From assembly GCA_903918755.1 (NCBI GenBank), contig CAIXFN010000058.1, positions 1 through 62,153 of the forward strand: a stretch of 62,153 nucleotides of DNA. Direction: 5' to 3'. Positions 267 to 37,429 of this stretch are shown in pieces. The position numbers and the translations under genes were made by a program. Within the stretch, counting starts at the first letter, position 1; every line of letters begins with the position of its first letter. The DNA comes from an uncultured Pedosphaera sp. Lineage in GTDB: Bacteria > Verrucomicrobiota > Verrucomicrobiia > Limisphaerales > Pedosphaeraceae. The notes under the pieces are model-generated. The model worked only from the letters and a program-made list of their open reading frames with translations, made no database searches and was not told the origin of the DNA.

Positions 267-3200
267 TCAACCGCCCATTGCCTTTCGGAGCAGTTTACCA
301 ATGTACGTGGCCCTGTCCTCATTTTGGAAGAGGACATTGCGCGATTCTAAATCCTCCTTGCTCATGGGCAGGCCGGTCCCGGGCGTAAGCCAATCAGGCA
401 CTTCGCGAAAGCGCGTGGTAGCGATGATGAAGGAATTCAGGATTACCGCCGGATCGGCAAGGCGCTGCTCTAGGGTCTTGACGGTGCGAAAGAATGAAAT
501 TTTGGGGTCGTCTGCCCCGTCCAAGTTGCGCAAGCCCTTTGGGTCCACAAAGGACACAAATTGACGGCCACCTACCAGCAGCCAGAGAATGAAGTCGGGG
601 TAAAAATTGCCCGCCTCGAAAAAGCCGATGCCCTTCCCGCGACTCAAATTGCGGAGCAGGTAAAGTTCTTTATCCGCGAAAAAGGCCCGGTTGTGCTCGT
701 AAAAGTGTTCCAGGTCCCCAACAAAATCTCGCTCCCCGTCGTTCAAAGCAACTGGTCGAACATCGATCACATCGCTTTTAAGATAAATCAGCGGTTGGTA
801 GAGGTGCTGGCCAAAGCAGATGGATCGAAAATTGGACCATTCCACAGCTTTCAACTCGCGTTGCGCCACGGCTTCCTTGACCTCGGTCAGCTTGGCGATG
901 ATTTCCTTTTCGGACTCATTGATCATGAACCGGTATTCGCTGACAAAATTCTGATCTCCTTCGCCGAGAATCTCGTAGCGCAATTGGGGTGCTTCCCATG
1001 CGGCCTTTTTCGTTTTGAAGAACAGATCGCAGTATTTTCTCAACAGCGCCACGGCGATCTCCTGCCACCGAAAGACCCGGTCAAAGCGGGTGATTTCCAA
1101 CTCTTGCGGCGGGATGTACAGCGTATACCACCCGGGGTCCTGGAGCAAGGCGAGGCAGGCTCCCGCTTCCAGATTGAGATTGAACCAAGAGCGCTCGTTT
1201 TTGAATGTCTGCATCTCGCGGTCGATGGCCGGCCAATCGAAAAAGGCCAGATGCTGGGCCGAAAGAACTCCCTCGTGCCGAGGGGCAATTTCCGCCGTGG
1301 CCGACAAGCCGGGCGCGATCCGGCTCTGGATTTTTGGATACCAATCCACAGTCACCCGACGATCCCCCATATCATCATCCGGCAGACCGAGGGCGGGTTT
1401 GGGTCCCTGGCGCTTGAAATCCAGTTCCGGCGGCAACCGCAGAATCTTCAGCGGCTGGCCCCCGAGGTTTTTGAACGTGGGCAGGATAAACTCAATCCGG
1501 TTTTCGTTGGTGGCCAATCCTTCCTCTTCCAGGTATTCCTTGAATTGCTGCATGAACTGGGCGCGGACCCCGAACACATTAAGCGTTTCCAGCAAATTGA
1601 TATGGTCGGGCTTGAGCGGGCGAGCCTCGTCCACGAAGCCGCTCCGCTTAAGGCCAAACTGGTACCCCTTCAAGCGGACACCACGACCAAACAACTGGAT
1701 TATTTGGGACCCTTCAGTCTGCCCCACATTGAGCAATCCCATGGTGCTGACCCGCCAACTGCTCCAACCTTCCGTGAATTTCTTGGAGCCAATCAGAAGA
1801 TTGATGGTCGAGCCCTTTTCGTTGATTTCGGCAAAAAGCGATTGGGAAAAAGGCCGGTCGGAAACCTTGAGCAAAGCGGGGTGCTTGTCGCACAGATCGC
1901 GGAGTTTGGAAGCGTCGCCGACATTGATGACGCCGAACGGTTCGTTGTGTTCCCCGAGCCGGAGGGCGATCTCGCCGTCGCTGCCGGTCAAATGATCCAC
2001 ATGCAGGGCCGCGACGACGGTCGCATTGAACACGGTTTTGAGGATGTCCGTGAAAATTTCGGCGGGTGTCAGCCGACTCTCAATCAGATACGGATAGGCC
2101 CCGCGAAAAATGTCGCTGCCACTGGTACTGAGCAGGCCGGTATTACCAGACAAGAGGCGCTCAATCCGGGCAACGGAGTCCGCGCCGCCCTGGATAAACT
2201 CCGCGAGGAACAGCAAAACATCCACCACGTCAGAAACGTCCTGGCGGCCCTCGGTGCGAACGGCCGTCACCTTGCTCCCCACCAGAATCCACAGCGGGCG
2301 CTCGATGAGGAACGGGCGGAACGCGCTTTCCTCGCAGGCGTAAAGCACAACCTGCTGGTAAAAGGCGAGCAAACAGGCCGTGAGGTACAGTCGCCGGGTA
2401 TCCTCATTGCGGTCGTCCGCGAGATTCAGGATGCGGTAATCTTTACCGAAGCCATCGCGGTAAAAATACTTGTAGGAATAATCAAACAGCACGCACTTGG
2501 CGTATTCCTCCGTCAGTTCCGGTTTGTTGGCCGCTTTCAGCGCCTGGCTAAAGGTGGCCGAATACTCAAACGAAAAGCCTTGGTCACACAAACGGTCACG
2601 GTTGCTTTTCCATTTGAACCCGCCCGCTCCCCGGTGGCCCTCATCCACCAGCACCAGATTGTTGCTCTCGAAAGCGTCCACGGCCACGGTTTTGTCGCCA
2701 CTGTCCTCGGACAGTTTGGTGACTTCCAGAATCTCCACCGAATGACCTGCGAACAGGCTGGTGCTTTCTTTGACGAAGATTTCCGCCTCAATACCGCTTA
2801 ATGCGAACTCAGCCAGATGCTGCCGGGAAAGCCCTTCGTTGGGCGTCAGCAGAATGGTCCGGTTCAGTTCGCGCTCCCGGCCATGCTGCCGCAGATAGTG
2901 CCGATATTGCAGCAAATTGACGTGCATAAGCAGCGTCTTGCCGGAACCGGTGGCGCTCCAAAATGCGAGTTTCCGTAATTCCTCGCGCCGGTAGGGGCGC
3001 AACGCATCCCGCCCCGGGTTGGCGACGTTAAAGCTGGCAACGTGCGCGTTGAGGTCGGCCAGCAATCGCTCGGGGTCCGAAAAATACCTGTCGAGGTAGA
3101 TTTCAGCGAAAAGCAGACCCAAATATTGGAAGTACTTCCAGCGCAACGGCTCGCCCCGTCGGGCGCTGATCGCCTGCGTGTGGCGAACGATGTTCTGGTC

Positions 3201-3458
3201 GTAGTTTAACAACGCATCCCGGTTCAAATGCTGGCGCTCAAACAGGCGGTTGGCGATGACATGATGGAAGCGGGATATGTTGTTCTCATCGACCCCTTCG
3301 TATGCGGTGTCGTGAAGCCCTTCCGTTAGAGGAACGAAAGAATCCGTTTCAAAGAGCCCCAGCAACCACTGATTCAAGACGAGCCGCTGGTCAAAGCGGA
3401 GCGCCGGGCCTGGAGGGCGACGGGCGCGACGGTTGGTGGTGGGCGCGGCGGGGGGCAT
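267..3458 (-). CDS. Type III restriction Res-like DEAD/DEAH helicase-nuclease
   Basis: This 1063-residue protein has the layout of a type III restriction subunit. A Walker A motif ATGSGKT lies near residue 168, a DEGH box near residue 269, and a motif VI-like segment (QIIQLFGRGVRLKG) marks the second RecA-like domain. Near residues 950-970, FYPDF followed after about 17 residues by VDPKG matches the PD-(D/E)xK nuclease pattern found at the end of Res subunits. It likely translocates on and cleaves DNA that lacks the modification made by the methyltransferase encoded at 5324-8419. It is separated from the AlbA_2 gene upstream by 149 bp, the only large gap in the operon, so it may have its own promoter. 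No frame disruption is seen. Confidence 0.9.
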   Translation of the reverse strand: MPPAAPTTNRRARRPPGPALRFDQRLVLNQWLLGLFETDSFVPLTEGLHDTAYEGVDENNISRFHHVIANRLFERQHLNRDALLNYDQNIVRHTQAISARRGEPLRWKYFQYLGLLFAEIYLDRYFSDPERLLADLNAHVASFNVANPGRDALRPYRREELRKLAFWSATGSGKTLLMHVNLLQYRHYLRQHGRERELNRTILLTPNEGLSRQHLAEFALSGIEAEIFVKESTSLFAGHSVEILEVTKLSEDSGDKTVAVDAFESNNLVLVDEGHRGAGGFKWKSNRDRLCDQGFSFEYSATFSQALKAANKPELTEEYAKCVLFDYSYKYFYRDGFGKDYRILNLADDRNEDTRRLYLTACLLAFYQQVVLYACEESAFRPFLIERPLWILVGSKVTAVRTEGRQDVSDVVDVLLFLAEFIQGGADSVARIERLLSGNTGLLSTSGSDIFRGAYPYLIESRLTPAEIFTDILKTVFNATVVAALHVDHLTGSDGEIALRLGEHNEPFGVINVGDASKLRDLCDKHPALLKVSDRPFSQSLFAEINEKGSTINLLIGSKKFTEGWSSWRVSTMGLLNVGQTEGSQIIQLFGRGVRLKGYQFGLKRSGFVDEARPLKPDHINLLETLNVFGVRAQFMQQFKEYLEEEGLATNENRIEFILPTFKNLGGQPLKILRLPPELDFKRQGPKPALGLPDDDMGDRRVTVDWYPKIQSRIAPGLSATAEIAPRHEGVLSAQHLAFFDWPAIDREMQTFKNERSWFNLNLEAGACLALLQDPGWYTLYIPPQELEITRFDRVFRWQEIAVALLRKYCDLFFKTKKAAWEAPQLRYEILGEGDQNFVSEYRFMINESEKEIIAKLTEVKEAVAQRELKAVEWSNFRSICFGQHLYQPLIYLKSDVIDVRPVALNDGERDFVGDLEHFYEHNRAFFADKELYLLRNLSRGKGIGFFEAGNFYPDFILWLLVGGRQFVSFVDPKGLRNLDGADDPKISFFRTVKTLEQRLADPAVILNSFIIATTRFREVPDWLTPGTGLPMSKEDLESRNVLFQNEDRATYIGKLLRKAMGG

Positions 3459-3556
3459 GCTTTTAATTTTTAGCTAATTCTGACTTCTTCCAGCGTCTTT
3501 TCACTCGAACAAGCAATAATTTGGAATTTTGGGAAAATTACCATAGTTATGGAAGG

Positions 3557-3606
3557 TTCCCCATATCGTTTTGGGCGGCACCCCATAAATGCCCAAATCA
3601 CCCCAT
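3557..3606. promoter_or_regulatory. Direct repeats, possible operator before the Res-like gene
   Basis: In the gap between the AlbA_2 and Res-like genes the octamer CACCCCAT occurs at 3579-3586 and 3599-3606. A CCCCAT core lies at 3559-3564, giving spacing of 20-22 bp, about two helical turns. On the coding strand the unit reads ATGGGGTG. A related 13-mer lies at 11588-11600, in the region in front of the first operon gene. Binding by the small HTH protein of the operon is inference. Confidence 0.35.
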
Positions 3607-3607
3607 T

Positions 3608-5302
3608 TCAAGGCTTTAATTCATACCAACTTCCGCGCTTTTCGCCGTGTTTCAACAAGCGTCCGTCCTGTGTCAGTTTTTTTAACAACATCTTGGCTTG
3701 CTCCGGTTTGACGCGACAGAGATCGGCGACTTCCCGCCGGGTGATGCGGCCATTTTTTCCAAGGTATTGGAGCACCATTTGTTCACGCTGAATGGGTTCA
3801 AACCCGCGCTGACGGACATAAGCTGGCTTCTGGCCAGTATCGCGATAAAGGCTCGCTGAAAGGTGGTAATCGCGGGCTTTGCCAGCGCCGCGAGCTTCGA
3901 TGAGTCCCTTTTCCAGCAACCGATGGACAACGGTTCTGGCCTCGGTTTCAGATTTTTGGGTCAGTGCGGCAGCTTCCGCCGTGGTGAGGCTGCGCTCGTA
4001 CCAAAGCTGGTTTAGCACCAGCAATTCGTCCAGCGACAAGGCGCGTCCCTCCTGGCTTTCCGTAGCGACGAGCCGGACGAAATCGAGATTCGCTTGCCCG
4101 CCGGGCAAAACGAGCACCACATCGGTTTGCGTGCTGCGGTCATAAATAGGCGCAGGGCGTCCGTTGCGCAACTGTTCTTCAAAAAGCGTATCAATTCCGC
4201 GAGCGGTGCGATCCACCAGACCGGCACGTTTGAAAGCGTCCGCCAGCAACAGATTGCGCGGGCGCGGGGGCGTGGTGAGTAGGTTCCCCAAATTGACGCC
4301 TTCGGGGAAACCGCCGGGGTTGGAAATTTCCAAGGATTCTGCGTGCCACTGAATATGGACTGCCCCCATGCGGGTATAATCCCGGTGAACCAGCGAATTG
4401 GAAATGGCTTCGCGGAAAATGCGCTCGGTGTAAAGTGGCACAGGCACGCGCAGCATTCCCACCATGATTTCCTCCTCACGGTTGAGTGCGGCCAACCGCC
4501 CCCGCAGTTCCTCCATGGTGCGTAACAATGGCCAATGGAAAAACTCGTTTGGGCCGAGTTGCCCACTCGTGATCACTTGAAACGCGACCTCATGCGTGGG
4601 CAGCCACCGCCGCAAGGCATCCTCTTTGCCGAAAAGCAACAAGCCTAACACACGGATGGCGGTTTCCGGCCCATTCATTTCCACCGCACCCAACGCCTTC
4701 GCCAGTTCCACGTCCGGCAGTCCCAAAAGATTTACGTCCCCGCGCCCACGGCTTTCCTGCACGTTACGGCGGAAACGCTGAAACTCCAGTGGATCAAGGT
4801 CATCCCATGAAGCGCCGCGCACGACGAAGGTGGAATAATCCTGCATCTGGCGTTCGGCCACCATGCCTTGCATCTCATGAAAAGGAAATGGCACGCACTC
4901 TGGCACGCCCCGGCCTCCCATGGCCCGGCGCACATACTTGGCATCTGACGTGCCAACGGGTGCTCGCGACGGAGGCACTTCAACGACGAGAATTTGCTTC
5001 CCCCGCACCGTCAACAACTCCGACCGGCAAGATTGCGAGGGGCGGGTGCGGTTGGCGATGAGGGCCTGCAACTGATAAACATCCGTTTTCCCGCCGGGGT
5101 GGCGCGGTCGAGCGCCGGAGACACTTCGATCGTCTTCCACGCCGACCAGCAAATAGGCGGGATTGTTGCCGGGACGATTGCATAGGCAAACCACGGCTTC
5201 CACGAGGGCGTTGTCATTTAGAGAAGCATTGGCCTCCCCTTTGAACTCCACGTCCATCGTTTCACCAGCGGCAATCAATTTTTCAACCTGTTCCGGCGTC
5301 AT
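3608..5302 (-). CDS. Schlafen AlbA_2 / ATP-binding domain protein of the restriction operon
   Basis: This 564-residue protein begins with an AlbA_2 (Schlafen-type divergent AAA-4) domain over about residues 1-150, with VEFKGE and YLLVGVEDD as typical segments. A GHKL-like HATPase_c_4 region follows around residues 300-400, with the family-typical FREAISNSLVHRDY and ISNPGGFPEGV. The C-terminal 130 residues look like two winged helices (TTAEAAALTQKSE and ITRREVADLC). Such proteins are common in defence operons and are usually called putative DNA-binding or ATP-binding proteins; their exact role is unsettled. The gene starts 21 bp after the methyltransferase stop, so the two are probably co-transcribed. 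Confidence 0.85.
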   Translation of the reverse strand: MTPEQVEKLIAAGETMDVEFKGEANASLNDNALVEAVVCLCNRPGNNPAYLLVGVEDDRSVSGARPRHPGGKTDVYQLQALIANRTRPSQSCRSELLTVRGKQILVVEVPPSRAPVGTSDAKYVRRAMGGRGVPECVPFPFHEMQGMVAERQMQDYSTFVVRGASWDDLDPLEFQRFRRNVQESRGRGDVNLLGLPDVELAKALGAVEMNGPETAIRVLGLLLFGKEDALRRWLPTHEVAFQVITSGQLGPNEFFHWPLLRTMEELRGRLAALNREEEIMVGMLRVPVPLYTERIFREAISNSLVHRDYTRMGAVHIQWHAESLEISNPGGFPEGVNLGNLLTTPPRPRNLLLADAFKRAGLVDRTARGIDTLFEEQLRNGRPAPIYDRSTQTDVVLVLPGGQANLDFVRLVATESQEGRALSLDELLVLNQLWYERSLTTAEAAALTQKSETEARTVVHRLLEKGLIEARGAGKARDYHLSASLYRDTGQKPAYVRQRGFEPIQREQMVLQYLGKNGRITRREVADLCRVKPEQAKMLLKKLTQDGRLLKHGEKRGSWYELKP

Positions 5303-5323
5303 GGTTTTACGGTAGGGGTTGCC

Positions 5324-8300
5324 TCACACATCCCGCACATCAAACATCAGTCGTTGGAACTCGTCCTCAATGCGGCGGACTTTCCACGTTTCATCAAGGC
5401 GCTTGAGGTTTTCAAGGTTGTTGTCTCCGTTCACATAGACCAGTGCGAATTCGAGGTCTTTGGTGTTGTAGCCCTGCTTTTGGAAAAAGGCGTCCAGGGC
5501 GGCATTGGGATTTTCCGCGACGTTTCGCCAGATGATCAGGGTCTTTTCCCCGGCAGGATTCACGCCGGTGATGACTTTGAACCCGCGAATGCTGTCCATG
5601 TGCCCCACGCGCAGCCCAAGCAAATAATTGAACGTCTCCACCAGGTCCACGTTCATGGCACGCGATTCGCCCACGCTGCCGGTGGCGATTTTTAGCTGGT
5701 AGGAGAACGGGGTTGCGAACTGCGCCACTGCCAGCAACGACGCGCTCCCGGCGCTTTCCACGTCCAGTTGGTAGTGCAGCAGGTAATCCTCGCGCAAGGG
5801 GGCGTGCTGGCGCAGCAGGTCGTCCTGCGCCTCCGTGCGTTTAAATTCCAGATTGTTCAAGGCGTCCTCGTAGGATTCGAGACGGAGATATTTGAACAGG
5901 TGGCTGGAACCTTCCCGCGAGACGGGTTTGCCTGCCCGCCAATTGTTTGAGTAAATCAACTTCTGTATCCGTGGTTTGAGCACGGCGTCAAAGTGCCCGC
6001 CCATTTCCATTAGCAGATATTTGCGGTTTCCCTTGTCTTCTCGGTTGAGATCAATAACCGCGTGCCCGGTTGTTCCGGAGCCGCCGAAAAAATCCATGCA
6101 CCAGCTTTCTGGTGGTGCGGCCATCTCCAAAATACGGCGCACGAAACTAAGTGGTTTTGGAAATCCAAAATCCAGGCCCATGCCGGGAAGGATTGTTTTC
6201 GTATCAACTTGAGTGTCATCAAACATTACCGACTGCGGCGTCATGTTCTCATACTCATCAAGATAGTTCTTAACTCCAGGCACAGTCGTTTCATCTTCAC
6301 CAAAATGAAAACCCGTCGGCTTTCGCGCCGCAATCTCGTCAGTTTTTTCTTGGCCAAACCTCCAATTGTCGGAGATTTTGCACTTCTTTTTTGTTACGGG
6401 GTGAATAAGGACAACATCGGGATACACTGTTGCACCTTCACTTTGGAGCGTGCGGTTTGGATTCCCAGATCGATATACGCCCTTTTCATCAAACTCGGTA
6501 TAGTGGTCGAATGCCTTGAACATCGGGATTTTGGAAATCTCGCGCAAATTCTGCCTCTTCTCTTCATCGGTCAGTTGCATCTTTAGCAGAGCCTTGGTGC
6601 GTTTCTTAAATTCATCGACGTACGGTTTCTTTATCGCCCATTTGTCTGCCCGAGCGCTCGCAGCCGGGTTCTTAATGCTCACGATGCAGTAGTCATGAGT
6701 AGTCGAGAGAAACTGAGACCAACTCTTGGTTGATGGATTAACCCGCACGATGGTCGCCTCCGGGCTGCATCCAAACTGCAATGCTTGTAGCTCCGCCAAT
6801 CGTACATACTCGTGGTCGTCCACGCTGGTAAATAGCGCACCGCCATTGGTCAGCATTGCCGATGCTCGCGCCAAGCGGGACTCCATCATAGCCAGCCACG
6901 ACGAATGCGGGTAAGTATCTTTGTAACAGAAACCATCGCTGCCGGTATTGTACGGCGGGTCAATGTAAATGCATTGCACTTGCTCTCGATAGCGTGCTTG
7001 CAATAAACTAAGCGCGTGGAAATTCTCACCGTAGATCAATAGGCCATCCAAGGCCGCGTCCAGCGTTGCTGCACCTCCAAAAATCTTGTTGTCGGCCAGC
7101 AAATGTTCCTTGAACTCCGACGGAAACAATTTCGTGTCCAGCACCAGAAAACGATTCGCTTTTAGAAACGCCACACTTAGCGGGCTGGTGTAACCGGGAG
7201 TTGCGAGGTCACCTGCAATCTCATTAATGGCAAAAAGTTTCACCCACTCCGCCCGCTGGGCGTCGTTGGCGGCGATCTCTGGGTAAAGCGCTTCCGCCAC
7301 GCGGTCGAGCGTTACGCAATAATTCGTCTCCACCACAAATTTCTTTTTGAGCCAGAGCTTTTTCTGGAAATTTTCCAACTGCTCCAAAAAATCAATGATC
7401 TTACGCGCAATACTTCGGATCGCCTTGATTTTGGCGAGGTATTGCTCTACCCGTGAAGCGGTTTCGGCCTCGATGTCGTCGAGGTGCATGATCTCGTTTT
7501 TGATGTAGAAATCGAGTTCCCGCCGGAGAAATCCGCCGATGTCCTTGTGGATGAAATAATCGAAACTGTTGCGGGCGGTGTAATCTTCCAGGTGTTTTTC
7601 CAGCAGGGTGCGACCGGGGTTTTTCTCGGTGGGGACCAACCGAGCCAAAGAGGGCGCCCAACTCGCGAATCCGGGCGAACCCAGAACGGCAACGCAGGCA
7701 AGCGTGGTCAACTCGCCCTGCTTGCGCTTTTCCGGGTCAGGCCGATATTCGAACCGGATGACCAGTTCCCCCGCACTCTCGAACACCGGACCGGTGGAGC
7801 ACAGAATGAAGCGGCGTTCCTGGCCGGCGATAGGTTTATTGTTGTCCGCTTCGGTGTCCGCCTCCACGAGCTTGAAATGCACCCGCCGCGCATCCGACAG
7901 CTTGAACGTGTAGTCCCGCAAAAACTCGCTGGTCTTGATGTAATATTGGTCGGCGTTGGCCCAATGGAGTTTTACCTCTTCGCCTTCGTAGGGAATGGCG
8001 TACACCCCGGCCTTGTAGCGCCGCAAAGCGAGAAAATCCCCGTCCTGATAATAGCGGCGGAAGAAGTTCGTCAAATCCGAAAAAACCTCGTTCTCCAGTG
8101 CAACCGGGTCCCCCTGGAGGTCAATTTGGGTCTGCAACTCGCGGACTTTAGGCGTTTGCTCCGCCTGCTCGCGGGTCAAGCCCATGCCCTGGCCAGCAGC
8201 GATCACCCTGGCCTTTTCCGCTTCAAGCGCTGCCCGGGCACCAGAATCCACCCGAGCCAAACTCTGCCGCACTTGGGGCAGGAGGTCATTGTCCAAGAAC

Positions 8301-28772: not shown

Positions 28773-31700
28773 TCACGGAGCGGAACTGGCAGGCGCCGCT
28801 TTCGCCGCTTCGGCCGCCTTGATCTCTGCCGCGCGACGGGCCCGTTGCACCGCCGCCGCAATCATCGGGTCATCCGGTCCCTTGGCGCGCAGGCCTTCCA
28901 AGACTGGCAGGTCCAAATTGTCAAACACCATGGGATCATCCGGCCGACTCTGGTGAAGATGCCAAACGTGAAAAGTGACTGCCGCGGCATCCGCTTCCTT
29001 CCGCGCCTGTGCGATCACCATCCGATCCCATTCCTCCACCGCTTCGGGAGTAACCCGGAACTGCTCGGGATAGGCGGACCGAAGGCGCTGCCACACCTCA
29101 GCCAGGGAATTGGTCCGCACGGTATTCATCTCCAAGCCCTCGGGCGCGATGGCATCGCCGGATAACAATCGAGCCAAATCCATCAGGTCAACCACGGGCC
29201 GATTTTCTTCCGGCAGGGTCCAGACCGTCGTCTCGCCACCGGCGGCGCCAATGGTTACAATTTTCTTCGTGCCGGGAACAAAACTTGCCCGGACGATGCG
29301 ATGAATATGCCGGAGGGGCGGAGTCAGGGGGTCGCCGGAATCTGCCGCCCAAAGCCGGGCCGAGTAATCATTGCCGGCGGTCAGCACCATCCGTGCCGGG
29401 GCATCAAAGATGGCGGTCTTGACTTGATCCCGATGTTTCAGTGCCCGGCCCAGCACTTTGAAATCTCGCAAATCCCAAATCTTGGCGACCCGATCCTCCC
29501 CGGCGGTGACCACCCGCGTGCCGTCGGAACTGAGGTCCGAGAAAATGACACCGTCATCATGAAACATACGGGGTCCGACGGGCGCCCCGGTGGCCACATC
29601 CCACATTTGGGCATAGCACTTGGTCGCGGCTTCGTCGTAACAACAGGTGATTACCCGGCGGTCATCCCGGCTGAAAGTGGCGAATGCGGTTAACACCATT
29701 ACCCCGGCGACATTTTGAATGAGAGGCGGGCAGACGGCCCGGCCAGTGCCGGTTTCCCAAATCCGCACCTCGTTTTGGTCGGCGGTAATCAATTTGCTGC
29801 CATCGAAACTGAAGGTGGTGATCGCGGTATCAGTCGAATGCGGCAAGTCCAGCATTTCCCGCCCGCTAGCCACTTCCCAGAGGCGCACATGATCATGGGC
29901 CACGGTCGCCAGCAAGCGGCCATCGTCGCTGACTTCCGCCCGGAGCACCGGTTCCGTCGGACGGATGCCAGACCCGATTGCTTGACCGGATTTCACCTCC
30001 CACACCTGGAGATTGGTCCGTTGCTCGGACCTGATCCCCTCATCCAAACAAGTGCCCAGGACAAAGTCACCCGACCGGTTAAATTTGGCATTCTGAATTC
30101 CTACCGCCCGCCACTGCGAAACGGGCTGATCAGCGATGGCGTCAAAGACCTGGATGGTCTGGTTGGTAAGAATGAGATAACGAAGCGCGTCCGGCGCCTG
30201 GATCCGGGCCAGGGGCCGGGCGGCCAGCCGACCGCCAGCCAGGTCCCAATGCCGGACCGTTCCATCCCAACAACTCGTAAACAAACCATGGCCATCCGGA
30301 CTGAATACGGCGCAGAATACTGCCGAGTTGTGATTCAGCACCGGTACCAACTCCCAGGGTTCAAAAGTATGGGCCGACCAGAGGCGAACCGTACGATCCC
30401 AACTTCCCGTCACAATCATCCGCCCATCCGGACTGAATTCGGCCCAATTAATCCCCTCCTCGTGGCTCAACCCAGAGGACAACCTGATTCCGTTCGTGGC
30501 ATTCCAGACCCAGGCCTTCTTGTCAAAACCGCACGTCACCAACAGCTGGTCATCGGGGCTGAAGGCGGCGTGAGTAATCCAACTAATACCGGGAAGAATC
30601 AACAAATTAGTTCCGTTATGGGCATCCCATACCCGGGCGGTACCATCCTGGCTGGCCGTGACAATCAACTTGCCGTCGTGGCTGAAGTCGCTAAAGAGAA
30701 CCGGACCGGCGTGATCCAGGACAAATTCGGTGCGTTTTTGTGCCAGATTCCAAACACTGGCGTTGTTGCTATCGCAGGAAATAACCACCCGCCGGCTGTC
30801 GGGGCTGAACCGGACGCTATGGACCGTGTTCAAGGAATACGGCAGCAGGGCCCGCACCCGGCGGGTTTTAACCTCCCAAATCGTCACCGCGTTCGTCCCG
30901 AACTTTTTCCCAACGGTAGTCGCGGCCAACTCGCCATCGGGACTGAATGCTCCGGCGGGACAGAAGCCCTGCGCGGCAAATTCCGGACCGACCTGAATTC
31001 CGGCGCTCAGGGAATGGCAGGTGGCGTCCTCTCCTTCCGGCAGCGCGAGCAGCCTCGTTCCATCCGGGCTGATGGCCAGTTGGTCAACGGGGCCCCGCTC
31101 CTGCCAGAATTCGATCAACTTGGGACACTGCTCCAAAACCGCGCCGACCCGCAACCGGTCCAACTCGGCGCGCTTCCCATCCCGTTCGTCCGTCCGCAGG
31201 GCTTCCGTAAAGTAGGTCAGCGCGCCCGGATTATCGCCCGCTGCCATCGCGGCATTACCGTAGGCAACATTGGCGCCCACATGGCGTTGCCGCTCCTCGC
31301 CGCGCCGGCGGATTTCGTTGTAGATCGGATAAAGCACCGCCGCCAGCACGAAGGTCAATGCCCCGGCGAAGATCGCCAACTTCTTAAGCCGGCCCAAGTT
31401 CCGCTCCAGAGAAAGCAGGCGCTTGACCGATTTTCCGTTCGCCAGCACCAGGAGGTGGGCATGCATCTCCCAGGCGGTTTGATAACGATTGAAGGGATCG
31501 CGGGCACACGCCTGGAGCGTCACCTCGTTCAGTTCGAGCAACCGCTCCACTTCTGTTTCGGCATCGTAGGCGGTGGGCAACTCGGGAAACGCCAGCCGAT
31601 CATTCCCCGTGCTGGCTTCATACAGCACTTTGCCCAGGGCATAGACATCCGCCTGCGGTTTCCCGGGCCCCTCCGGCGGCACGTAACCTTCCGTGCCGAC

Positions 31701-32309
31701 AAAGGAAAGATTATCACCTACGGTCGTCACCAAGCCGATATCAGCCAGCTTGGGCACCCCATTCACAAAAATGATATTGGACGGCTTGATGTCCCGATGC
31801 ACCAGTTTGTGCCGGTGCAGTTCCGCCAGCGCGAGGCTGAGCGCCAATCCCAAGCGCAGGCATTCCGCCAGGGGCAGGGGTTTGCCGGCCGGCAACACAT
31901 CCCGCAGCGTTTTGGCAGCATAGATCGCCGGCTGGATGGTCTGGCCGGAAGTTTGATCATCCCCCAGCTCCATCACATAATAAAAGTAACCTCCCGGCTC
32001 ATTGATCCCGACCTGCAGCACATCCACAAAACCCTCATGCGAACGGGAAATCGGTTCAAACTGACGGATACCCGATAACTCGCGCAGGTAGGGAACGTCA
32101 TCCTGGAAATTCGCCCGGTAAACGATCTTTACCGCGCGATACTGCCCCATGGAATTGCGGGCCAACCAAACGCGGCCGTAACTGCCTTTGCCGATGCATC
32201 GCAGGAGCTCGTGATCGGGAATGGGAACTGGCTGGGCATCGTCGGGTGAGGCGCCCCGGTTACCCGGTGGCGAATCGCCGGGATTTCCACGATTGGTTGG
32301 CGTACTCAT
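28773..32309 (-). CDS. Ser/Thr protein kinase with C-terminal WD40 propeller
   Basis: This 1178-residue protein has an N-terminal kinase domain with GKGSYG at 40-45, catalytic Lys61, HRDIKPSN from 171 and ADIG at 189-192, where DIG replaces the usual DFG. A single transmembrane helix spans about 311-329. Residues about 400-1080 contain many WD40 repeats (SPDGTRLLAL, SHDGKLIVTASQDGTARVWD, SPDGRMIVTGSWDRTVRLW), and the tail is Ala-rich. The propeller would lie on the far side of the membrane from the kinase and may sense a ligand. Upstream on the same strand lie a glycosyltransferase, two small ORFs and an ECF sigma factor. Confidence 0.93.
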   Translation of the reverse strand: MSTPTNRGNPGDSPPGNRGASPDDAQPVPIPDHELLRCIGKGSYGRVWLARNSMGQYRAVKIVYRANFQDDVPYLRELSGIRQFEPISRSHEGFVDVLQVGINEPGGYFYYVMELGDDQTSGQTIQPAIYAAKTLRDVLPAGKPLPLAECLRLGLALSLALAELHRHKLVHRDIKPSNIIFVNGVPKLADIGLVTTVGDNLSFVGTEGYVPPEGPGKPQADVYALGKVLYEASTGNDRLAFPELPTAYDAETEVERLLELNEVTLQACARDPFNRYQTAWEMHAHLLVLANGKSVKRLLSLERNLGRLKKLAIFAGALTFVLAAVLYPIYNEIRRRGEERQRHVGANVAYGNAAMAAGDNPGALTYFTEALRTDERDGKRAELDRLRVGAVLEQCPKLIEFWQERGPVDQLAISPDGTRLLALPEGEDATCHSLSAGIQVGPEFAAQGFCPAGAFSPDGELAATTVGKKFGTNAVTIWEVKTRRVRALLPYSLNTVHSVRFSPDSRRVVISCDSNNASVWNLAQKRTEFVLDHAGPVLFSDFSHDGKLIVTASQDGTARVWDAHNGTNLLILPGISWITHAAFSPDDQLLVTCGFDKKAWVWNATNGIRLSSGLSHEEGINWAEFSPDGRMIVTGSWDRTVRLWSAHTFEPWELVPVLNHNSAVFCAVFSPDGHGLFTSCWDGTVRHWDLAGGRLAARPLARIQAPDALRYLILTNQTIQVFDAIADQPVSQWRAVGIQNAKFNRSGDFVLGTCLDEGIRSEQRTNLQVWEVKSGQAIGSGIRPTEPVLRAEVSDDGRLLATVAHDHVRLWEVASGREMLDLPHSTDTAITTFSFDGSKLITADQNEVRIWETGTGRAVCPPLIQNVAGVMVLTAFATFSRDDRRVITCCYDEAATKCYAQMWDVATGAPVGPRMFHDDGVIFSDLSSDGTRVVTAGEDRVAKIWDLRDFKVLGRALKHRDQVKTAIFDAPARMVLTAGNDYSARLWAADSGDPLTPPLRHIHRIVRASFVPGTKKIVTIGAAGGETTVWTLPEENRPVVDLMDLARLLSGDAIAPEGLEMNTVRTNSLAEVWQRLRSAYPEQFRVTPEAVEEWDRMVIAQARKEADAAAVTFHVWHLHQSRPDDPMVFDNLDLPVLEGLRAKGPDDPMIAAAVQRARRAAEIKAAEAAKAAPASSAP

Positions 32310-32427: not shown

Positions 32428-34959
32428 TCAAGCACGCCAATCCGGTCGAAAATCGACCGCCGCGCCGAAGGAACCCGCCGCTTCTTTCGTTCCCGCTAAT
32501 GGCCGCACCAGCGAAGGGGCGTGATAGGGCACGAATCCTTTCGCCAGTCGGGACAACTTCACCAGGCGACGCCCCACTGGGCCGGTCATCCGCGGCCAGC
32601 ATTTTGCGCCCTGACCAACCGTTTCCCGGGCCACCAGAAAGGCACTCAAGGGGGAATCAGGAACCGCTGCGGGGTCCACCCAGCGGGCCTGGTTAGCCAG
32701 GTCGCAAGCCACCTCCTGGACCCCCGGGTTGTACAGACTGGCGAGCCGGATCGATCCGCTCCGCAAAAGCGGCCAGGCCAGTAATACTTCCGGCAGGTTT
32801 GGATGCACCTCCAGATCTCCGCTCAACCACAGCAAATAATCGGTCCCGCGTTCGTGACTGGCCCGGAGTGCGGCGGTGACCGCGCTTTCCGCCACCACGC
32901 ACCCCACTGCCCCAAATCCCTTCATTTTCCGCAATTGCTCGACCATTAACCCGGCTCGGGAAGAAGGTCCCTCGCCTCCCACCACCAAGGCTTCCAACCG
33001 CGGCGGCCAATGGGTTGGTGGTTGGGCCGGGGGAGCGCAGATCCCCCGCCTCAGGGCATGCGCCTTGCCCCCATCCCAAGCGGACCGGAGTTCCTCCAGG
33101 AAGCGCCGGGCCTGGGCTTCCTCCCGGAAGTCTGGAATCAAGGGATTCAGCTCGAAAAGGTCCCACTTGGCCATATTACGGTGCTGAAAGACGCGTCGGC
33201 CCTCGAAATCGTGCTGGCACATGGCACCCGGCAGCGCTTTGACCGGATGGGGAATCAGCGAAAAGGGCTGCCGGAGTTTGCGGAAAGCCAGTTGGAAGGT
33301 GTCTTTATCCCCATGGAGGTGGCGGTAGTAAAAATCGGAGTTTTCATTGAACCAAAGCGCCAGCCGCAAGACTTTTTCACACCGACGCTTGTCCCACAGC
33401 ATCTGCCCGCTCTCGATTTCCTGGGCGGGCTGCCGCAAACCACAACTCCGCCAGACGGGCGCGGCCTTTTGGTCCAGCCCCCGCAGGTAATCCGGCCACA
33501 AGATTGCGCCCGTCTTTTGATATTGCGCGGCGGCAAACAAATACTCCGGATTGCGCACCGGAAAATTATCGGCATCCAGGAAGAGCACCTCGCGGAATTG
33601 GGAATGCAAAATCGCGAATGCCTTCAACTCCCACCCGGCCAAATGGCGGACGGGATGCCGCCGGCGGAGTTTGCAAGCATCGACACATTCGACACCGAAG
33701 GGCCGAAGCAGGTCCGCCATGGCGGGATCCATTTCCTTGGGGCCCAAATGCCAAATTTCCACGGGCAGGCGGCAACCCAGGGAACGCAACTGGCGAATAC
33801 CGACCCAGGCATTGGTCAAATATCGAATTCCCCCGGCACAGATTACAATTCCCCGCCCCGCATACTCACCGGCCGCTGCCGGAAGTTGCCGGACAAATTC
33901 ATCGAGTGCCAGCCCGGCGCTCTGGAAGTTCAGTGGTTGCTTGTCGAAGGGGTTGCCCGCCGTGGCGATAACCGCCCGGGCCGCCGCGACCTGCTCCTCC
34001 GTCGTCAAGTATTGCAGTGCTCCACCGGCAAAGTAGAGCTCAATCCGCCGTGCCACCTCGGCTGGTGTGATCATTCCGAGGCAGCGCGGAAGCCCGCCGA
34101 CGACATCTTCGCACCGATGCCGGACGTGGTCCCGCGGATCGCCATCCCGCAGCGGCACCACCCGATCTTTCCAACATCCCCCGGAGGCACCGCAAGCCAG
34201 CGCCCCGTTGGTGTGGATAAATTGGTGGTTGGGATAGGCTTCCCAGTGGGCGGGTTCCCGCCCCCCGGCCACCACCACACAAGGGCGGTGGGAGGGGCAA
34301 CCAGGCCGGGTCTCCACGGCCGCGCACAGGTGCATCAAAGCAGTGACCGAGCAAAGGACCCCCTGGGCATGGTGGACCAAGCGCACCAGTTGGCGCAGAT
34401 CGGTTTTCCCCCGAAGATCGATCACCCCCGACAACCGGGGATGATGATGCCCCAGTTCGCCCACCTGCACGAACTGAATCCGCCCGCGAAAATGATCCAC
34501 CACCTCCTGATAGCGCCGGGTCTCCCACCATTTAATCGTGACATCGTACTTCCCCCCCGCCGCCACGATCCAAAACGGAATCTCCCGGCCGGCCACTTCA
34601 TGAACTTGGGAATACCAGGCCTTTTCTTCCGCCGAAAGATGAATGTCCCCGCGAAACACGGAGGGACAGACATTTACTTTCAGCCGCTCACTTAAGAACT
34701 GGGCAAAACCGTGCAGGCAGTGGTGCGGCGTCTCGTTGGAATCATTGATCAGCGGGTAGTTACAATCCAACTCCTCCACCGACGGGTCAGCATCCTCAAG
34801 CTTGACCAGGTGCGGATTATGCTCCAGCAATTCATCGCAACGGGTCCGGACATCGGTCAGAAACTGGCCGGGGTAACTGCGGTGCAAATCCCGCACGGCC
34901 GCCGTCAAAATGACGATGTCACCCGGCGAATAGCCACATCGCAAAATCAGTTTCTTCAT
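32428..34959 (-). CDS. Multidomain glycosyltransferase (GT9-like plus Mnn1-like plus GT-A-like)
   Basis: The 843-residue protein combines three parts. Residues 1-330 resemble ADP-heptose/GT9 transferases (LILRCGYSPGDIVILTAAVR) and include a Cys-rich segment ACGASGGCWKDR. Residues about 370-640 resemble alpha-mannosyltransferases of the Mnn1 type, with a DxD in VLFLDADNFPV near residue 456. The last 180 residues resemble a further GT-A domain (YLLWLSGDLEVHPNLPEVLL). There is no membrane segment. The ATG at 34959 is preferred because GT9 homology starts there. It probably builds an unusual surface or protein-linked glycan. Confidence 0.8.
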   Translation of the reverse strand: MKKLILRCGYSPGDIVILTAAVRDLHRSYPGQFLTDVRTRCDELLEHNPHLVKLEDADPSVEELDCNYPLINDSNETPHHCLHGFAQFLSERLKVNVCPSVFRGDIHLSAEEKAWYSQVHEVAGREIPFWIVAAGGKYDVTIKWWETRRYQEVVDHFRGRIQFVQVGELGHHHPRLSGVIDLRGKTDLRQLVRLVHHAQGVLCSVTALMHLCAAVETRPGCPSHRPCVVVAGGREPAHWEAYPNHQFIHTNGALACGASGGCWKDRVVPLRDGDPRDHVRHRCEDVVGGLPRCLGMITPAEVARRIELYFAGGALQYLTTEEQVAAARAVIATAGNPFDKQPLNFQSAGLALDEFVRQLPAAAGEYAGRGIVICAGGIRYLTNAWVGIRQLRSLGCRLPVEIWHLGPKEMDPAMADLLRPFGVECVDACKLRRRHPVRHLAGWELKAFAILHSQFREVLFLDADNFPVRNPEYLFAAAQYQKTGAILWPDYLRGLDQKAAPVWRSCGLRQPAQEIESGQMLWDKRRCEKVLRLALWFNENSDFYYRHLHGDKDTFQLAFRKLRQPFSLIPHPVKALPGAMCQHDFEGRRVFQHRNMAKWDLFELNPLIPDFREEAQARRFLEELRSAWDGGKAHALRRGICAPPAQPPTHWPPRLEALVVGGEGPSSRAGLMVEQLRKMKGFGAVGCVVAESAVTAALRASHERGTDYLLWLSGDLEVHPNLPEVLLAWPLLRSGSIRLASLYNPGVQEVACDLANQARWVDPAAVPDSPLSAFLVARETVGQGAKCWPRMTGPVGRRLVKLSRLAKGFVPYHAPSLVRPLAGTKEAAGSFGAAVDFRPDWRA

Positions 34960-35082
34960 TTTCGGGCCACTGCCCCAGCTAGCCGGGTCGGCGCACAAAT
35001 GGATGCCAAAAGGCACCGGATTTTGGTCCGGGGATAAACTGGCTCAAGACGGCCAGGCCAGCTTGCCGTGACGCGACCGGGA

Positions 35083-35365: not shown

Positions 35366-35533
35366 TCAAGCGATCGACTTTTCGTGGCGCAGTTTCGCCG
35401 ACAATTTCCGCAGAATACTCCGACGGGCGGCCATCAATTCCGAACGGGTGGGGCGGGTAGCCTCATCCATTTGCCTGATTTGGCGGAAGAGTGAAAAATT
35501 GAGACGGTAATCCTGGAATTTGAGCTTATTCAT
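35366..35533 (-). CDS. Possible 55-residue basic helical protein downstream of the sigma factor
   Basis: The frame begins MNKLKFQDYRLNFSLFRQIR at 35533, 35 bp after the sigma factor stop on the same strand, and ends at a TGA at 35366. It is predicted helical and strongly basic (SILRKLSAKLRHEKSIA). No membrane helix is present, so it does not look like a classic anti-sigma anchor. It may be a small partner of the sigma factor; function unknown. Confidence 0.45.
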   Translation of the reverse strand: MNKLKFQDYRLNFSLFRQIRQMDEATRPTRSELMAARRSILRKLSAKLRHEKSIA

Positions 35534-35568: not shown

Positions 35569-36210
35569 CTAGACATACTTTTTGCGGAGTCGCACCAATT
35601 CCCTTTGAATCAGCAAGCCAATCCGGTGCTTCTCCACATAAATCCGCGCCCGGCTGACTTTTAATAGCCGGGCGATCCTCGCCGGCGGCCACTGTTTCCT
35701 TACATTGAGGTCAAAGATCTGAAAGCGCTTGGAATCGACCTGCCGTTTGACCCGGTCAATGGCCTGTTCCAATAGATTCATCTCAAACTCGGAGTTCCAA
35801 CGCTCTTCCAACTCGCAAACCGGATCGGGAATCTCCTCGGAGCCTTTGGCAAAATCGCTGGCGGCATCTTCGAAACCCTTGGGATAAAGGCGCTTCCGCT
35901 TACGAAATTCATCCCGGATCCGCCAACGCGTGAGTTTGAAAAGCCAGGTCCGGAAAGTGCCCTTCTCTTTGGAATAAGCCCCGATCGTTCGGGCGGCCTC
36001 CGCGATGGTCTCCAGCGCCACGTCTTCCGCTTCCACCGGCGACAATCCGGATTTCAAGGCGAACAAGTAAATGAGTTTCCAATAGATATCAAAAAAAAGC
36101 TGCCAACCCGCTTCGTCTCCCCCCGCCGCCAGGCGCGTGATCAGGGAAGTACGGGTTCGGTCCAGGTCAATTGCCCCGTCCGCTTTTTCAGGTTTGTCCG
36201 CCACAATCAT
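35569..36210 (-). CDS. ECF-family RNA polymerase sigma factor
   Basis: This 213-residue protein has sigma region 2 (FFDIYWKLIYLFALKSGLSP, AEDVALETI, FRTWLFKLTRWRIRDEFRKR) and region 4 (WPPARIARLLKVSRARIYVE). The ATG at 36210 is preferred over a TTG at 36234, because AAGGG lies 6 nt before it and the promoter-like repeat ends just upstream. No anti-sigma gene with a membrane helix is adjacent. The downstream Ser/Thr kinase at 28773-32309 may be its regulatory partner, as in other Verrucomicrobia sigma-kinase pairs, though it is not immediately adjacent. Confidence 0.88.
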   Translation of the reverse strand: MIVADKPEKADGAIDLDRTRTSLITRLAAGGDEAGWQLFFDIYWKLIYLFALKSGLSPVEAEDVALETIAEAARTIGAYSKEKGTFRTWLFKLTRWRIRDEFRKRKRLYPKGFEDAASDFAKGSEEIPDPVCELEERWNSEFEMNLLEQAIDRVKRQVDSKRFQIFDLNVRKQWPPARIARLLKVSRARIYVEKHRIGLLIQRELVRLRKKYV

Positions 36211-36220
36211 GCTCGCCCTT

Positions 36221-36327
36221 ATATATACGAACAATCACGGGCACTTCTTTCAAAAAATTTTATTTTCGCATTTTTTCCATTCCTCTGCAGATTTTTGAAA
36301 GAAGTGGTCCGGCCATTACGTATATAT
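36221..36327. promoter_or_regulatory. Co-centred inverted repeat: two divergent ECF-type promoters
   Basis: Outer arms of 9 bp (36221-36229 and 36319-36327, CGTATATAT) and inner arms of 15 bp (36242-36256 and 36292-36306, TTTTTGAAAGAAGTG) are perfect inverted copies around the same centre at 36274. Each outer/inner pair is separated by 12 unmatched bases. Read outward, each half is TGAAAG-N17-CGTATA, close to the ECF (SigW-like) promoter pattern. The left copy ends 10 nt before the sigma factor ATG; the right copy points to the small unit at 36331-36488. Confidence 0.65.
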
Positions 36328-36330
36328 CGG

Positions 36331-36488
36331 TGAAAGCCAGATTCGTAATGTTCGGCGGAAGGAGGTCGCCGTAAGGAAAGTGACGGACTGGTCGCGCCCG
36401 GCGCATGGAATTTAGGCTGAGAAACGGCCAGGTTGAGGTGGGGGGATTGGCTGTCGCAAGCTAACACTTGCGGCAGCTTCTTGTTTTA
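36331..36488 (+). ncRNA. Candidate small RNA divergent from the sigma factor
   Basis: A transcript starting about 7 nt after the right-hand CGTATA and ending at the terminator would be about 155 nt. Only very short frames of 8-19 codons occur in it, although GGAAGGAGGT (36358-36367) is a strong ribosome-binding-like or anti-anti-SD sequence. Promoter-like and terminator elements at both ends support an independent small RNA or a tiny peptide mRNA. Exact ends are inferred. Confidence 0.5.
36450..36488 (+). terminator. Intrinsic terminator of the small divergent unit
   Basis: An 11-bp stem GCTGTCGCAAG / CTTGCGGCAGC (one G-U pair) with a 6-nt loop CTAACA is followed by TTCTTGTTTTA. This is the clearest terminator in the left part of the window, and no gene ends here, which points to a short transcript from the divergent promoter. 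Confidence 0.75.
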
Positions 36489-36664
36489 CACCATCGATAA
36501 AGGATTGAGGTTCTTTCCCGCCCATGCCATCGCCAACCCGTTACCACAGGACCGAAATCCTGCTGCATGACACTCCGTTAGCCACCCCGATGGCCATCCG
36601 CCGGACCAGGCATTTTCCCCACCTTTTCGCTTGCCGGAGTCCCGGGATTGGGGATTCTGGTGGC
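36489..36664. other. Intergenic, upstream of the ThuA-like gene
   Basis: These 176 bp contain an in-frame upstream extension of the ThuA-like gene (ATG at 36524). The extension has no protein character and would displace the signal peptide. The promoter of the ThuA-like gene is probably here; no consensus boxes were picked. Confidence 0.35.
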
Positions 36665-37429
36665 ATGACCAAACGGCTCTCCGCCCTCATCGTTGCCCTG
36701 CTTTTTTTGCTCCCCCACCGGGCACCGGCTGACGTCTTGATCGTTGCCGACGAATTTCCCGCCATGGAAGTGCTCCGAAATCAACTCCGGGAGGATGAAC
36801 GCCTGACCAGCCAACTCGTGCGCCAGGATCAACTCCCCCAAAGATTGTACGCCTATTCGGCGGTGGTGGTTTATATCCACAAAGCGCTCGGCTCTCCGGC
36901 CGAAAAGGCGTTTATTCACTACGCCGAAGGCGGCGGAAAACTGGTGGTGCTGCACCATTCCATCAGTTCGGGCAAACGCACGAATGACCAGTGGTTTCAA
37001 TTTCTCGGAGTCGCCCTGCCTACCGGTGAATTCAGCCAGGGCGGCTACCAGTGGATTGAACCCGCCACTCTGGACATCCTCAACCTGAATCCTGACCATT
37101 TCATCACCACCAACGGGGTTCATTATCCCAAACAGATTCGGTTCCTCGCCGCCGCCCCGTCGACGGGTTGGACGAATCTGCCGGCTTTCACCCTGCCGGA
37201 CAGCGAAGTTTATTTGAACCACCAGCACAAAAGTCCCCACACCCTTCTGCTCGGCCTGAATTACCGGGATCCCAAAACCGGCCTCGACTACCAGCAGACC
37301 ACCGCCGGCTGGATCAAACCGGCCGGCCGGGGTTGGGTCATCTACCTCATGGCCGGCCATCGCCGGGAAGACTTTGAGGACCCCGCGTACTCGCGTATTG
37401 TTCGCAACGCGGTGATTTTCCAGCCCTGA
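36665..37429 (+). CDS. Exported ThuA-like (trehalose utilisation family) protein
   Basis: The 254-residue protein starts with a signal peptide (MTKRLSALIVALLFLLPHR) and has the ThuA/GATase1-like fold. The segments YSAVVVYIHKAL, GGGKLVVLHHSISSGK and the closing GWVIYLMAGHRREDF are family-typical. ThuA-like proteins in Verrucomicrobia and Planctomycetes are linked to sugar metabolism, but their reaction is not established. The ATG at 36665 is chosen because it begins the signal peptide. Confidence 0.8.
   Translation: MTKRLSALIVALLFLLPHRAPADVLIVADEFPAMEVLRNQLREDERLTSQLVRQDQLPQRLYAYSAVVVYIHKALGSPAEKAFIHYAEGGGKLVVLHHSISSGKRTNDQWFQFLGVALPTGEFSQGGYQWIEPATLDILNLNPDHFITTNGVHYPKQIRFLAAAPSTGWTNLPAFTLPDSEVYLNHQHKSPHTLLLGLNYRDPKTGLDYQQTTAGWIKPAGRGWVIYLMAGHRREDFEDPAYSRIVRNAVIFQP

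Follow-up and report, generated by a model that had tools for sequence, protein, structure and literature searches.

The window analysed here, a stretch of 62,153 nucleotides from an uncultured Pedosphaera sp., carries two predicted ECF-type promoters that face apart in front of an ECF sigma factor gene; 41 bases separate their TTGAAAGA elements. We consider it likely that they form a divergent pair serving the adjoining sigma factor, one site directing the sigma mRNA and the other a short terminated RNA. On the minus strand, the sigma mRNA would have a leader of approximately 8-10 nt if transcription starts 6-8 nt after the -10 element, and the transcript would probably cover a cassette of a small protein, a glycosyltransferase, and a kinase. 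By using its own promoter, the sigma factor would be subject to positive autoregulation. On the plus strand, an RNA of approximately 155 nt would end at an intrinsic terminator (36449-36488). The output of one sigma factor would then comprise both proteins and an RNA. The features are listed in Table 1.

Table 1. Predicted features around the divergent promoter pair (positions in the window).
Feature	Position	Strand	Basis
ECF-type promoter of the sigma gene, TTGAAAGA-N16-CGTATATA	36222..36253	minus	Exact match; such a site in 7/7 family cassettes
Divergent ECF-type promoter, TTGAAAGA-N16-CGTATATA	36295..36326	plus	Exact match; divergent partners in relatives
ECF sigma factor, 213 aa	35569..36210	minus	TIGR02937, Pfam Sigma70_r2; SigW best solved relative
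Small basic protein, 55 aa, C-terminal motif like KRxILKKLSxRIR	35366..35533	minus	No Pfam match
Glycosyltransferase (Mannosyl_trans3 and GT9 matches)	32428..35016	minus	Conserved neighbour of the sigma gene
Ser/Thr protein kinase with WD40 repeats	28773..32309	minus	Conserved in the cassette
Predicted short RNA	36331..36485	plus	Start estimated approximately 9 nt after CGTA; end at the U-rich stretch
Purine-rich tract GAGGTGGGGGGATT	36435..36448	plus	Directly 5' of the hairpin
Terminator hairpin, then TCTTGTTTTA	36449..36478	plus	Terminator scan; pair counts on 8 homologues

The paired sites form a nested inverted repeat. Its outer arms, 36221-36229 (ATATATACG) and 36319-36327, and its inner arms, 36242-36256 (CACTTCTTTCAAAAA) and 36292-36306, are exact reverse complements in a script comparison. 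Both pairs are centred at 36274, and 12 bases separate the outer arm from the inner arm on each side. The arms, the centre, and the spacing had all been described in a first-pass annotation of this DNA, and the script reproduced each of them. A repeat search of 35900-36700 at default settings reported no repeat, so the arms are established by the script comparison. The common centre and the equal spacing add no evidence, because promoters of equal length facing apart always share a centre. Both halves, when read away from the centre, take the ECF-type promoter form TTGAAAGA-N16-CGTATATA, or TTTTTGAAAGA-N16-CGTATATA when extended by the T-tract. The window's genome (7,194,820 bases in 118 contigs) contains three exact matches to the extended form and one with a single mismatch, and the reversed control matched once when up to three mismatches were allowed. 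The halves described here account for two of the exact matches. The third precedes a 184-aa ORF with a signal-peptide-like start (judged by eye; L004) by approximately 260 nt, and the one-mismatch copy precedes a 101-aa ORF (L003) by approximately 100 nt.

An ECF-type site precedes the sigma gene in all seven cassettes of the family, with a 16-base spacer in six and a 15-base spacer in G003. The first-pass annotation had read the halves as SigW-like ECF promoters and proposed a search upstream of orthologous sigma genes, which turned out positive for all seven family cassettes; the reading also agrees with SigW (5wuq) being the best solved relative of the sigma factor. Its suggestion of autoregulation is supported by the placement of an own-type site before each of these sigma genes. 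Its almost leaderless mRNA is in keeping with the sigma start codon (36210-36208, minus strand), which lies 10 bases beyond the left arm and points to a short leader. No sigma-70 promoter was found near the sigma gene at the scan threshold. We regard the left site as very probably the sigma factor's own promoter.

The same motif appears elsewhere in the family. With TTGAAAGA-N16-CGTA as the query, seven of the eight family genomes yielded 56 matches in all, compared with two matches of the reversed control. The numbers per genome were 3 in the window's own (G000), 2 in G003, 12 in G002, 7 in G004, 8 in G006, 13 in G007, 11 in G005, and none in G001, so that the window's genome has only three exact sites compared with 7-13 in five other members. 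In a set of 57 sites (by our reckoning the 56 family sites and one from G023), columns outside the search pattern were also informative, namely the T-tract before the -35 element, T/A just before CGTA, and T/A-rich positions after it. In the fetched loci, 17 of 54 sites fell within ORFs of at least 100 aa, compared with 1531 of 1800 random points, and a same-strand ORF start followed within 400 nt for 32 of 54 sites, compared with 301 of 1800. Eighteen downstream proteins, chosen by hand, were run against Pfam. Three were hybrid histidine kinases with receiver domains, three were AraC-type regulators, and six had other domains (two lectin-like, one RHS/Ig, a subtilase, an S1/P1 nuclease, and a 3-keto-disaccharide hydrolase); the remaining six had no Pfam match at the thresholds used. 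The promoter, autoregulation, and regulon readings are well supported by comparison of sequences. The adjoining sigma factor, rather than a paralogue, is the presumed user of the sites; counting against this assignment, the window's genome contains four matches to the sigma factor at E 1e-10 or better, and related sigma genes have the same -35 element. As a separate observation, one ECF-type site (L107:929-956, plus strand) is located approximately 430 nt upstream of a long ORF (1388-4999, plus strand) that reads as Cas9-like, with RuvC-like and HNH-like motifs recognised by eye.

The sigma factor scored 60 bits against TIGR02937 (cut-off 42.9) and 38.5 bits against Sigma70_r2 (cut-off 24), and Sigma70_r2 was matched in all nine members. 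The Pfam region 4 models each reached E 0.05 in only one of the nine. The ECF profile aligned up to residue 198 of the sigma factor, and SigW aligned up to position 203 of a profile of nine orthologues, for which it was the best solved relative over both domains. The cassette of sigma factor, small protein, glycosyltransferase, and kinase is kept in G002-G007, which belong to the same family as the window; neither the cassette nor the sites were found in G001, an assembly of 870 contigs from the window's genus. The 15 named relatives reached through the glycosyltransferase are metagenome assemblies, 14 of them labelled Verrucomicrobia, Verrucomicrobiales, or Pedosphaera and one labelled 'bacterium'. 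Among 20 regions upstream of glycosyltransferases, nine contained a recognised sigma gene, and three others were shorter than 900 bases at a contig end.

Between the sigma and glycosyltransferase genes there is a small basic protein of 55-69 aa in eight aligned sequences, which have in common a C-terminal motif like that in Table 1; in addition to the window, its loci are on L065, L066, L067, L068, L069, L070, L164, L165, and L211. It may regulate the sigma factor. None of the conserved neighbours (the small protein, the glycosyltransferase, and the WD40 kinase) was recognised as an anti-sigma gene. In four family genomes, a further ECF-type site is located directly behind the kinase gene of the cassette (L066:15943, L067:15410, L069:16511, and L070:2738), and in G004 this site heads a hybrid histidine kinase gene.

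The divergent arrangement is also found in relatives. An exact divergent partner is present within 90 bases in G002, G004, G005, and G006 and in two genomes of another family, G076 and G105. The facing TTGAAAGA elements are 41 bases apart in the window, 77 in G005, 73 in G006, 78 in G004, 71 in G002, 88 in G105, and 66 in G076. The 41-base stretches around the sites have an identity of 0.60 within a genome compared with 0.56 between genomes. Hence the claim of the first-pass annotation that the inverted repeat has been kept as a whole does not hold; in these comparisons, the promoter pair is conserved and the palindrome is not. Because the spacing varies and the likeness within genomes is small, we rejected the repeat as an operator or conserved unit. 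A version of this idea, in which the left site alone functions as a promoter, and the right site and the inverted repeat either serve a dimeric regulator as operator or arose by chance duplication, could appeal to the palindrome, a typical target of a dimeric protein, and to the TTTTTGAAAGAAGTG that both window halves carry beyond the -35 core. We consider it very improbable, given the range of the gap, the single, non-palindromic sites that precede many other genes, and the terminator found behind all six of the close divergent partners outside the window's genome.

In the divergent-promoter model, the right-hand site leads to a terminated RNA. Of the nine exact divergent partner sites in front of sigma genes, seven are followed by a terminator, five in the family and two in the other family. 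In these seven, a tract rich in purines, a hairpin resembling GCUGCUGC, and a U-rich end follow 155-247 nt on; the distance from CGTA to the terminator is 155-238 nt in G000, G002, G004, G005, and G006 and 246-247 nt in G076 and G105. The U-runs are weak in G004, G076, and G105. No terminator was found behind the far divergent site of G003 (approximately 340 bases from the sigma site, towards an HTH-type ORF), the divergent site of the second sigma copy in G076, the N15 site of the second G105 copy, or the one-mismatch site in G155. The nearer N15 site of G003 leads to a short hairpin without a clean U-run, and G007 has the sigma site and no divergent site. Terminators within 330 nt were found for 8 of the 56 family sites compared with 84 of 2506 random intergenic points (p = 0.0007), and in a wider set for 11 of 101 sites compared with 10 of 600 random points. 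In the window alone, the generic terminator scan was not above chance (one found, 1.9 expected). On this evidence, the right site is likely to give rise to a short terminated RNA.

The conserved part of this predicted RNA is its 3' end. The tract before the hairpin reads GAGGTGGGGGG in the window, GAGGCGGGG in G005, GGGGTGGGGAA in G006, and GAGGTGGGGGAA in G004, and 11 of 13 RNA-like units have at least 10 purines in 14 positions (an uncontrolled count). The stem starts with GCUGCUGC or a sequence near it. In its exact form, the combination GCTGCTGC-N6..20-GCAGCAGC has one occurrence in each of the G002, G005, and G006 genomes, at the RNA locus; it occurs twice in G004, once at the RNA locus, and twice in G031, both times at other places. 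It is absent from G000, G003, G007, G076, and G105, where the stems differ. In the hairpins of eight homologues, 94% of the cells are paired and 7 of 13 pairs have changed on both sides, a result reached by none of 500 shuffles, although these counts lean towards structure because the hairpins were picked for complementarity. Upstream of the 3' part, the RNAs are hardly alike (48% mean column identity).

The covariance model match at 36435-36485 is one of the model's own training sequences. Across 293 genomes, the model found no new member, returning the eight training loci, an antisense copy of one of them, and, in G167, a terminator of ordinary appearance that follows a different gene; within the five genomes of the G076 family, only known members were found. 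No ORF common to these RNAs across families was seen, while short ORFs exist. An encoded peptide was therefore discarded as a candidate, the close relatives G076 and G105 sharing one such ORF. A search of 36150-36800 against Rfam at E up to 1 gave no match at the gathering score, and mir-3167 (23.7 bits, gathering score 86) was dismissed as a chance match on the inverted repeat. The first-pass annotation did not mention the conserved terminated RNA that is predicted for the right-hand promoter.

Similar units occur away from the divergent arrangement. G031 has one with its own site behind a same-strand sigma gene, and G007 has two compact units elsewhere, with a GAGGTAGG tract within 78-89 nt of the site and a strong terminator. 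On contig L091 of G007, three ECF-type sites lie in a row within approximately 760 bases (4815-5700, minus strand), and two of them head compact RNA-like units with a near-identical terminator stem (GGCCAGTCTCA). Short tandem repeats (CGGAAGGTAT-like) are present near the RNA-like units at L091:4040-4340.

The likeliest product of the right-hand promoter is a small RNA dependent on the sigma factor, and a terminated leader is the main rival. In the leader reading, the promoter would drive the ThuA-like gene (36524/36665-37429) through a long leader, with the hairpin as an attenuator and no free small RNA. The next likely gene is indeed co-directional in all eight genomes in which such a hairpin adjoins a sigma gene (G000, G002, G004, G005, G006, G031, G076, and G105); in G076, G105, and G031 it starts with a receiver domain (judged by eye), a class that occurs behind other sites too, and the one-mismatch divergent site of G155 leads to a receiver-domain gene without a terminator. 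However, the genes downstream differ within the family (ThuA-like, different glycosyltransferases, and a membrane-like protein) while the tract and hairpin stay, and for the two G007 units, the nearest 900 nt contain no 100-aa ORF on the same strand. We therefore regard the leader as rather unlikely. The small RNA would represent a new ECF-sigma-dependent family in Verrucomicrobiota, encoded back to back with its sigma gene, with a purine-rich GAGGYGGGGA tract before the terminator and an independent evolutionary origin. We propose this only tentatively, at somewhat short of an even chance, because a receiver-domain gene follows in three genomes and the next likely gene is co-directional in eight; an action of the RNA in trans would likewise be conjectural.

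Among related sigma genes of the order, the two promoter elements behave differently. With at most one mismatch allowed, TTGAAAGA-N15..17-CG was found upstream of 16 of 22 glycosyltransferase-linked sigma genes (0.35 expected from shuffles) and 10 of 18 unlinked related ones (0.26 expected). Four of the 22 (G026, G076, G105, and G155) had been chosen through a motif scan, and excluding them leaves 12 of 18. G001 (contig end) and the second G076 copy were left out of this survey, and G047 was moved to the linked set. The second G105 copy, one of the 16 linked matches, lacks a proper -10 element. Eight of the ten unlinked matches have CGTT, CGAT, CGAA, CGCT, or CGGA, and two have CGTA. In these sequences, the -35 element is common to the related sigma genes and the -10 element is variable. 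Loci with TGAAAGA kept and the -10 element altered (L115, L118, L124, L125, L128, L129, L130, and L131) form a natural series for -10 specificity. In G172, the -35 element is altered in both facing promoters, and the two are alike (by eye). An order-wide scan with TTGAAAGA-N16-CGTAT gave matches in 45 of 293 genomes, compared with six reversed-control matches.

Verrucomicrobiota have many ECF sigma factors, and to our knowledge little is known of their signals and promoters. The present analysis supplies one verrucomicrobial sigma factor with a promoter motif of low background, with 7-13 predicted sites in five family genomes and three in the window's. The genes predicted downstream include hybrid histidine kinases, AraC-type regulators, and proteins with extracellular-type domains, and the sigma factor is also given a candidate regulatory RNA. 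The related sigma genes illustrate how a -35 element may be retained while the -10 element changes. Literature searches on Pedosphaera sigma factors and on Verrucomicrobia small noncoding RNA returned no title bearing on the element.

The SigW-type consensus of Bacillus consists of a TGAAA -35 element, a spacer of 16-17 bases, and a CGTA -10 element. The window resembles autoregulated ECF systems of this type in its promoter layout and in the own-type site adjoining the sigma gene. In contrast to them, its -35 element is TTGAAAGA with a preceding T-tract, and the conserved neighbours are the small protein, the glycosyltransferase, and the WD40 kinase. The Ser/Thr kinase gene of the cassette recalls ECF43, ECF59, and the former ECF60, which the sections of PMC8103513 drawn on here describe as ECF sigma factors linked to Ser/Thr kinases, with the acidic residues of the DAED motif replaced by non-charged ones. 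Unlike in those groups, the acidic residues are kept in all nine sequences here (EAED in the window, and EAQD in seven and ESQD in one of the other eight; motif placed by eye). Measured against that description, this is evidence against the phosphorylation switch of ECF43/ECF59, and we rejected kinase-dependent activation of the ECF43 type. A short RNA behind an ECF-type promoter, providing an RNA arm for the sigma factor, has counterparts in MicA, RybB, and MicL of the E. coli RpoE response, as named in the same sections (PMC8103513), and in GsrN of Caulobacter sigma-T, which has an intrinsic terminator according to the part of PMC5869019 used here. Likeness to these RNAs was judged through Rfam, where the predicted RNA had no match. 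In contrast to the RpoE and sigma-T RNAs as described in these sources, the RNA is here predicted to be encoded divergently from the sigma gene itself. If the prediction is correct, this sigma factor would act partly through a small RNA, as RpoE does in E. coli, by an arrangement of independent evolutionary origin.
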